From the IMG/VR virus record IMGVR_UViG_3300030390_002309, positions 58,409 through 122,408 of that record: a stretch of 64,000 nucleotides of DNA; one strand, 5' to 3'. The notes beneath the pieces were generated by a model that was not told where the DNA came from, made no database searches, and was given only the letters and a program-made list of their open reading frames with translations. Both the position numbers and the translations under genes were made by a program. The stretch's first letter is position 1. Each line of letters begins with the position of its first letter. Of the stretch, positions 1 to 829 are shown piece after piece. Origin of the DNA: a virus.

Positions 1-101
1 GGTGCTTAATTAAGCAGCCATCGCCATGTTAACATGTTCGCCTGTTATTGCGTTGATCTTCATTATATCCTTATCATCATGTCAAATACCTGTTCATCCC
101 C
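1..101 (-). ncRNA. ssrA: tmRNA coding piece (permuted two-piece tmRNA), cut by the window edge
   Basis: The mature 5' end is at 101 and reads GGGGATG, followed by a D-loop-like segment (AACAGGTATTTGAC) that aligns with the 5' end of bacterial tmRNAs. GGGGATG pairs over 7 bp with CATCTCC of the acceptor piece (200-194), including a G3-U70 wobble. A P2-like helix is possible: 79-75 with 228-224 and 68-62 with 241-235. A tag reading frame follows (51-10). Its stop codon lies in a self-complementary stem (about 19-1) like helix P5 of E. coli tmRNA. The piece continues past base 1, so its 3' end is unknown. Because the acceptor piece lies upstream, the gene order is circularly permuted. Confidence 0.88.
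10..51 (-). other. tmRNA proteolysis-tag reading frame
   Basis: Resume codon GCA at 51-49. The frame encodes AITGEHVNMAMAA and ends with TAA at 12-10. The C-terminal Ala-Ala and hydrophobic last residues fit SsrA degrons read by ClpXP, which usually end in LAA, VAA or AAA. The resume codon is chosen by analogy with GCA in E. coli. The preceding AUG-AAG-AUC-AAC codons are in frame but are probably not translated as tag. Confidence 0.75.
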
Positions 102-106
102 ATTTG

Positions 107-178
107 TAGCCCGACGGAGAATCGAACTCCGGTTACATGGATGAAAACCATGCGTCCTAACCACTAGACGACCGGGCC
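107..178 (-). tRNA. tRNA-Glu (anticodon UUC)
   Basis: A complete cloverleaf of 72 bases: acceptor GGCCCGG with TCGGGCT (two G-U pairs), anticodon stem CATGG/CCATG with loop TTTTCAT (anticodon TTC at 145-143), and T arm CGGAG/CTCCG with TTCGATT. Discriminator A107. No CCA is encoded. It sits in the intervening segment of the permuted tmRNA, 14 bases after the acceptor piece and 5 bases before the coding piece. Its 5' and 3' maturation would therefore also help to separate the two tmRNA pieces. Confidence 0.95.
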
Positions 179-189
179 AATTTCCTACT

Positions 190-248
190 TAGTGGAGATG
201 GTGGGAGTCGAACCCACGTCCATTAATGCAGCTAATATAACTACTAAC
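190..248 (-). ncRNA. ssrA: tmRNA acceptor piece (permuted two-piece tmRNA)
   Basis: The segment 221-190 reads GGACGTGGGTTCGACT then CCCACCATCTCCACTA, which matches the 3' end of tmRNA almost base for base: T stem GTGGG/CCCAC, T loop TTCGACT, acceptor strand CATCTCC, discriminator A193. CTA is encoded instead of CCA, so CCA must be added. The 5' part supplies the 3' strands of the P2-like helix (241-235 and 228-224). The 5' boundary is estimated from the -10-type promoter at 256-264. Only about 75 bases separate this piece from the stop codon at 266, so a normal one-piece tmRNA cannot fit upstream. Confidence 0.88.
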
Positions 249-255
249 GATCATT

Positions 256-265
256 TATAAATATG
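256..265 (-). promoter_or_regulatory. late-type promoter for the tmRNA/tRNA locus
   Basis: Minus strand CATATTTATA lies directly after the stop codon of the gene ending at 266. The same CATATTTATA core precedes the genes starting at 12090, 15494 and 39999. No -33 box is seen at the spacing used by the replication promoters. It would start transcription near 248, just ahead of the acceptor piece. Confidence 0.55.
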
Positions 266-829
266 CTACTTCAATCGTATATACTTCTTACCACCTTTAA
301 AATATATTGTACCAATTGGTATTTCATCTGTCAATGCCTTTCCTAACATATCATATGCTATATCATTATACCATCTAATACCATCTTCTTCAATTACAAA
401 TCCAGGAATTCCTGTAGGAGTATTTCTCAACATTACAACCCATGTAAATAAATTGAAATCATATACTACCGAGTCACAGTAATTACACATCATTATTGTT
501 GAATCTAATTGATATATAAAAGCATCATAACATAATTTAACTGTATCTGATATTTGTATTAATGGAAATGAGTATGGATTATTTCCTTGACCTACATAAC
601 ATGCAACATCATTACATGCAGTGAAGCTCCAATCTATTGCACCTACCATATTACCTATACCACCTGAACTTGGAGTTACAGTTAATGTTGTATTTGGAAA
701 TATTGAATATGATAAAGAGTCACACCAATTATTAGTTTGTGCCTGTGACCTTGTTGACCATAATGTCAATACTGCTAGCCAAAATATAGCTACTATAAAA
801 TAGCCTTTGTTCTTGTTAATTTTTTTCAT
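266..829 (-). CDS. secreted protein with a short T9SS-like C-terminal tail
   Basis: 187 residues. The N-terminus (about 1-31) is a signal peptide: Lys-rich start, hydrophobic stretch, cut near SQAQ. The body is rich in Cys and aromatic residues and has no recognised domain. The last about 30 residues read YDMLGKAL...IPIGTIYF...KKYIRLK. They closely resemble the end of the Omp28-like protein at 63539-64000 (YDMLGRE...LPKGMYI...KKYIKLK) and the Por secretion tail of Bacteroidota. I infer export through Sec and then possibly the host T9SS. Start chosen at the Met before the signal peptide. Confidence 0.7.
   Translation of the reverse strand: MKKINKNKGYFIVAIFWLAVLTLWSTRSQAQTNNWCDSLSYSIFPNTTLTVTPSSGGIGNMVGAIDWSFTACNDVACYVGQGNNPYSFPLIQISDTVKLCYDAFIYQLDSTIMMCNYCDSVVYDFNLFTWVVMLRNTPTGIPGFVIEEDGIRWYNDIAYDMLGKALTDEIPIGTIYFKGGKKYIRLK

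Follow-up and report, generated by a model that had tools for sequence, protein, structure and literature searches.

The start of a 64,000-nt stretch of viral DNA (hereafter, the window) raised the question of whether a phage encodes a circularly permuted, two-piece tmRNA and, if so, why a tRNA gene lies between its pieces; a sequence-only reading had proposed both features. We consider it highly likely that the locus is a permuted, functional-looking two-piece tmRNA whose intervening segment (IVS) is a permissive slot for tRNAs and hairpins. The window covers C1:58409-122408; the linear virus record to which it belongs is 129,594 bases long and may be incomplete. The window codes for T4-type functions in replication and the baseplate and also for ribonucleotide reductase, GroEL and RecA; the carrier is a large, uncultivated phage, kin to the T4-type phages. 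The phage GroEL (538 aa; window:42550-44166, (-); PHROG 5725) was approximately 57% identical to its best matches in an annotated phage collection, which were GroEL proteins of the enterobacterial type.

Identification and anatomy of the permuted tmRNA gene

Using cmscan, the permuted model RF04321 (tmRNA_permuted; gathering cut-off, 47 bits) matched window 252-10 on the (-) strand at 58.8 bits (E = 7e-9 for 64 kb), and the one-piece model RF00023 scored the locus at 28.2 bits, under its cut-off of 47. RF01849, RF01850 and RF01851 were absent from the matches listed for the window at the gathering threshold or at E up to 10, the latter list leaving out three matches from the same clan that overlapped and scored lower. 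ARAGORN did not detect the tmRNA in the window alone because the coding piece is cut off at base 1; once the left flank was added, it called a permuted tmRNA at record C1:58327-58692 with the tag GEHVNMAMAA*. The sequence-only reading had proposed such Rfam and ARAGORN searches with the sequence left of base 1, and both recovered the arrangement it had claimed, with the acceptor piece encoded ahead of the coding piece. Against its own proposal it had set a one-piece tmRNA elsewhere combined with a lack of covariance support at the locus. This record did not contain that combination; no second tmRNA was detected elsewhere in its 129.6 kb, which may be incomplete. When the tmRNA was compared with isolate phages at the DNA level, only T-arm matches were obtained.

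The acceptor piece (253-193, its mature 5' end being approximate) contains the P2 5' strands and the T arm and ends with CAUCUCC, the 3' strand of the acceptor, and discriminator A193 (Table 1). The coding piece extends beyond base 1 as far as a 3' pseudoknot at about 58408-58360 of record C1; there, just left of the window, ACGG pairs with CCGU and GAAGC with GCUUC. The piece order had been read correctly at the outset; the extent of the locus needed correction, as the IVS spans 192-102 (91 nt) and the tmRNA continues left of the window. CAUCUCC (200-194) and GGGGAUG (101-95) form the predicted 7-bp acceptor stem, including G3-U70. Both predicted P2 helices (228-224/75-79 and 241-234/62-69) were present, and a third helix, P2a (252-249/55-58), had been overlooked. 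CCA is encoded neither for the tmRNA, in which ACUAAG follows the acceptor piece, nor for the tRNA-Glu. A candidate promoter at 306..334 was not conserved among the tmRNA homologues.

Table 1. Features at and next to the permuted tmRNA locus (window coordinates)
Feature	Position	Strand	Description and basis
Coding piece (5' part, encoded second)	1..101	(-)	Begins GGGGAUG at 101; RF04321, ARAGORN, alignment, covariation
P5-like hairpin GCUUAAUUAAGC with tag stop codon	4..15	(-)	One compensatory pair in homologues
Tag reading frame	10..42	(-)	GGC GAA CAU GUU AAC AUG GCG AUG GCU GCU UAA = GEHVNMAMAA* (ARAGORN)
IVS	102..192	(-)	91 nt; bounds from acceptor stem; would be cut from the precursor in the model
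tRNA-Glu (UUC) in IVS	107..178	(-)	Intact; ARAGORN and RF00005 (59.3 bits)
Acceptor piece (3' part, encoded first)	193..253	(-)	RF04321 match, 10-homologue alignment, covariation
P2c 5' strand	221..228	(-)	Pairs with 81-75; both sides changed in four pairs
P2b 5' strand	234..241	(-)	Pairs with 69-62
P2a 5' strand	249..252	(-)	Pairs with 58-55; AU/CG/UA covariation
187-aa gene directly upstream of tmRNA	266..829	(-)	No Pfam match; missing with tmRNA from G033 empty site
Candidate sigma70-like promoter, TTGACA-N17-TACAAT with extended TG	306..334	(-)	Inside 3' end of upstream gene

Homologues, covariation and the compact 5' domain

A pattern search with the coding piece identified homologues on nine further viral contigs, which come from related uncultivated phages. 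All nine were called permuted by ARAGORN, with tags of the form GE[HQ]V[NE][ML]AMAA. The window and its homologues gave 10 loci and nine distinct rows in the covariation alignment. Standard pairing was found in 97.8% of the cells of 45 pairs and decreased to 41-45% when the partners were slid by 1-3 columns. Nine pairs carried changes on both sides (31 cells), a number that no shuffle reached (mean, 10.4). Compensatory changes were observed in the acceptor stem, T stem, P2 and P5; acceptor pair 5 was CG, UA or GC, and G3-U70 (U-G, columns 58/64) was unchanging. The acceptor stem and the two P2 helices noted from the sequence are therefore supported by covariation across the nine distinct homologue sequences.

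The related phage genomes have many genes in common. In the closest large relative (G033; DNA polymerase 89% identical), the flanking genes are adjacent, and both the tmRNA and the 187-aa gene are missing, indicating that the two were gained or lost as a unit within the group. An HNH endonuclease gene (C1:57497-58018, (-)) lies left of the window, one gene from the tmRNA insertion site, and its homologue in G033 is 86% identical; this endonuclease could take part in the gain or loss of the tmRNA. A more distant relative (G023; DNA polymerase 51% identical) carries a one-piece tmRNA (L193, C1:147488-147861, (-); RF00023, 101.8 bits) with an unusual 24-residue tag, ANEISDFTFEDALSFVSNEVAIAA, and the acceptor strand GGGCCCG with G3-U70.

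The distance from G1 to the tag was 59 nt in the window tmRNA and 58-64 nt across the family; for the 77 other permuted tmRNAs compared, the median was 85 nt, and a few of these, unrelated to the family, were equally short. The spacing from P2a to the tag was about 17 nt in the window tmRNA. The usual PK1 would not fit into the 58-64-nt stretch. In the window tmRNA, no PK1 was found ahead of the tag, and the resume codon is instead spanned by a hairpin; the tmRNAs of the family appear to lack PK1. PK1 is common in tmRNA but not universal, and we took its absence as compatible with membership of the permuted tmRNAs. The hairpin around the resume codon, UAAC[A/U]GGCGAACA[U/A]GUUA, occurs in the window and its homologues (alignment A2, columns 118-137) and has one compensatory change, which tracks whether the tag carries His or Gln.

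These features could be explained by a decaying tmRNA in which the tRNA-Glu alone is useful and the pieces are relics. Such decay would fit the short 5' domain without PK1, the absence of a phage SmpB from the window's record, which may be incomplete, and the loss or lack of the tmRNA in the close relative G033. However, the compensatory changes seen among the nine homologues in the acceptor and T stems, P2 and P5, the conserved tag and the retention of the tmRNA in 8 of 10 homologues with no tRNA inside all argue against decay, which we regard as very improbable.

Contents of the IVS and their exchange between relatives

The claim that a complete tRNA-Glu lies within the intervening segment held true, as the tRNA folds into an intact cloverleaf. 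It starts 14 nt past the tmRNA discriminator and ends 5 nt ahead of GGGG. In the minimum-free-energy fold of the precursor, the cloverleaf was nested within the tmRNA acceptor stem, with a z-score of only -1.7. The tRNA is identical at 73/73 positions to a free-standing tRNA-Glu in a related record (G051; L186:3929-4001); the flanks there are unrelated, and the tmRNA of G051 itself holds hairpins in its IVS.

The IVS differed among loci: it contained tRNA-Glu in the window, tRNA-Ala in L018 and twin AT-rich hairpins in L105, L186, L188 and L192, and it was only 18-22 nt long in L187, L189, L190 and L191. The pieces of the window and L018 were 84% alike, and the similarity ended at the tRNA. 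Between G053 and G057, the IVS was 97% identical and the pieces 77%, whereas between G052 and G054 the pieces were 100% identical and the IVS 57%. The divergence of the IVS is decoupled from that of the pieces, a pattern suggesting that the IVS is replaced as a whole. Because relatives have a different tRNA, paired hairpins or hardly any sequence in this slot, it looks like a site for interchangeable RNA cassettes. Eight of the 10 family members have an IVS that lacks a tRNA, which argues for the tRNA being a passenger and not a necessary part.

It is extremely improbable that the nested tRNA is an artefact of assembly or chance. The contig is metagenomic, and a tRNA identical to a separate gene on another contig could reflect a mis-join; however, L018 is a second contig with a different tRNA in the same slot and with matching boundaries, each of the two tRNAs sits precisely between its acceptor strands, and the Rfam E-value was 7e-9. 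We also considered whether the tRNA is functionally required, either by driving or timing the release of the tmRNA pieces or by coupling the dosage of tRNA and tmRNA. This requirement would suit the gaps of 14 and 5 nt that separate the ends of the tRNA from those of the tmRNA, and the cloverleaf-like IVS with a T arm seen elsewhere (L100), since tRNA-like folds may help processing. We nevertheless consider it unlikely, because the four homologues with an 18-22-nt IVS and the four with hairpins indicate that the tRNA is not needed in the family.

Among 88 viral loci with permuted spacing and a 78-108-nt IVS, an intact IVS tRNA was found in L018 only, and none was found in the 44 viral permuted-spacing loci with a 109-139-nt IVS (0/44). 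Three matches from genome contigs beyond the viral set proved to be tRNA arrays or one-piece tmRNAs lying next to other sequence, so this search did not recover the published case from an archaeal MAG (see below). A search for T-arm sequence in the IVS also picked out six permuted tmRNAs of the beta/alpha type with tRNA-like IVS sequence (L083, L096, L097, L098, L100 and L101). In these, a long closing stem accompanies the T-arm motif, and L100:10695-10971 folds as a full cloverleaf. The tRNA-like segments are perhaps decayed captured tRNAs.

We propose that the permissive slot operates as follows. A single transcript would contain the acceptor piece, tRNA-Glu and coding piece in this order; the tmRNA acceptor stem would close the loop, with tRNA-Glu folding inside as a normal cloverleaf. 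By analogy with established tRNA biology, host RNase P would cut 5' of the tRNA (178/179) and 5' of GGGG (101/102), and both 3' ends would be trimmed by host RNase Z or exonucleases. Since neither CCA is encoded, the CCA-adding enzyme would complete both 3' ends. Three RNAs would result, namely the acceptor piece, the coding piece and tRNA-Glu, of which the first two would stay joined through the acceptor stem and P2a-c. The coupling of tRNA and tmRNA processing suggested by the sequence-only reading is a sensible inference. The two-piece tmRNA would receive alanine by virtue of G3-U70 and, together with host SmpB, would rescue stalled ribosomes by adding a tag ending ...GEHVNMAMAA, and tRNA-Glu would supplement phage translation. 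The tRNA could sit in the IVS because the slot is permissive, any self-contained RNA being excised without harm, and tRNAs and hairpin cassettes would have been swapped in and out. Four observations count against this scheme: the compact 5' domain, the non-conserved promoter, the lack of an SmpB gene in the phage record and the precursor fold z-score of only -1.7.

The phage tmRNA might act instead as a decoy that competes with the host tmRNA for SmpB and ribosomes, its tag being handled differently by host proteases. We find this distinctly unlikely: the tag is unusual and the domain compact, as a decoy might have, but all charging and tagging determinants are retained and co-vary, and the tag end MAA resembles other tags. 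Starting again from a functional-looking tmRNA with a permissive slot, we give about equal credence and doubt to a broader idea, namely that mobile RNA cassettes use the IVS of permuted tmRNAs as a landing slot, with tRNA genes and hairpins moving as units. The cassettes would move freely because tRNA-processing enzymes guarantee their excision. If this idea is true, the slot has also left cloverleaf relics in other permuted tmRNAs, and the IVS is an intron-like refuge for nested RNA genes, without splicing.

Lineage and relation to known tmRNAs

The family shares with the RF04321 permuted tmRNAs (alpha, beta and cyano lineages) the order acceptor piece-IVS-coding piece, G3-U70, the T arm, the P2 pairing, the tag frame, the stop codon in a hairpin and the 3' pseudoknot. 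It differs from known permuted tmRNAs in having a Gly resume codon, a GE...AMAA tag, a 5' domain that is very short and an interchangeable IVS, and in usually encoding no CCA; its D-loop is TTTGACA, whereas almost all of the known-type permuted set have TTCGACN. Permuted tmRNAs with GE-type tags also occur on phage contigs outside the family, namely L270 and L292 (GENVYEYRVAA and GEQFNEYRIAA).

One-piece tmRNAs on viral contigs, some Bacteroidota-like, with GE..YALAA tags (L194-L218) also have a GGC resume codon, a GE...AA tag and, commonly, TTTGACA; they differ in being one-piece, in their longer 5' domain and in scoring above the RF00023 cut-off where tested. The D-loop TTTGACA was found in 18/20 GE-tag one-piece tmRNAs compared with 1-2/85 other permuted loci. 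The TTTGACA GE-tag one-piece tmRNAs are probably of the Bacteroidota type; one contig, that of L208, is linked to Flavobacterium, Cellulophaga and Olleya phages. The window tmRNA resembles the one-piece tmRNAs of Bacteroidota-like phages in its GE...AMAA tag, TTTGACA and absent CCA. Derivation of the family by independent permutation of a GE-tag one-piece tmRNA was also considered; a 65-nt alignment and tree, limited by the short sequence, did not resolve where the phage family falls relative to them. L215, L217 and L218 are tmRNA-like loci with the tag GETVYAMAA that ARAGORN overlooked (RF00023, 100 bits for L217 and L218), and L206:1243-1652 (-) is a GOLLD RNA (285 bits) with an array of tRNAs and a GEFNYAIAA-tagged one-piece tmRNA next to it.

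A Bacteroidota host, to which the sequence-only reading had pointed, was not supported. The tag and D-loop likeness is suggestive, but Shine-Dalgarno usage argues against it: the signal upstream of starts was 23% in G000 and 54% in G055, exceeding the 9% of a Cellulophaga phage. The nearest isolate by polymerase and RecA was Microcystis phage Mel-JY01, which was recorded from a cyanobacterium and has no tmRNA.

Permuted tmRNA is not new to phages. According to the main-text tmRNA passages of PMC9004378, phage Melnitz, pelagiphages and cyanophages encode permuted two-piece tmRNAs, and 53 among 133 phage tmRNA structures are two-piece. These tmRNAs form another sequence family, the passages mention no IVS tRNA, and the Melnitz gene carries a glutamine riboswitch. 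Nor is an IVS-nested tRNA unprecedented. The permuted tmRNA of GCA-2688965__sp002688965.2 holds a tRNA-Ala in its IVS, which its authors described as unique (PMC11915505). That tmRNA and the window's both contain an intact tRNA in a permuted IVS, the former coming from a nominally archaeal MAG. It might belong to the phage family, as the tRNA-Ala of L018 hints.

New relative to the openly licensed literature are the tmRNA family, the second kind of tRNA, the finding that this tRNA has an identical free-standing counterpart, and the signs that cassettes have been exchanged. A single reported oddity becomes a family with natural variants, in which two tRNAs, hairpins or nothing occupy one slot, and these variants make it possible to test whether, and in what way, RNase P and 3'-end enzymes process nested RNAs. 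The family adds a compact permuted tmRNA lineage with an unusual tag, so far found only in phages, and shows how an RNA gene could travel inside another.
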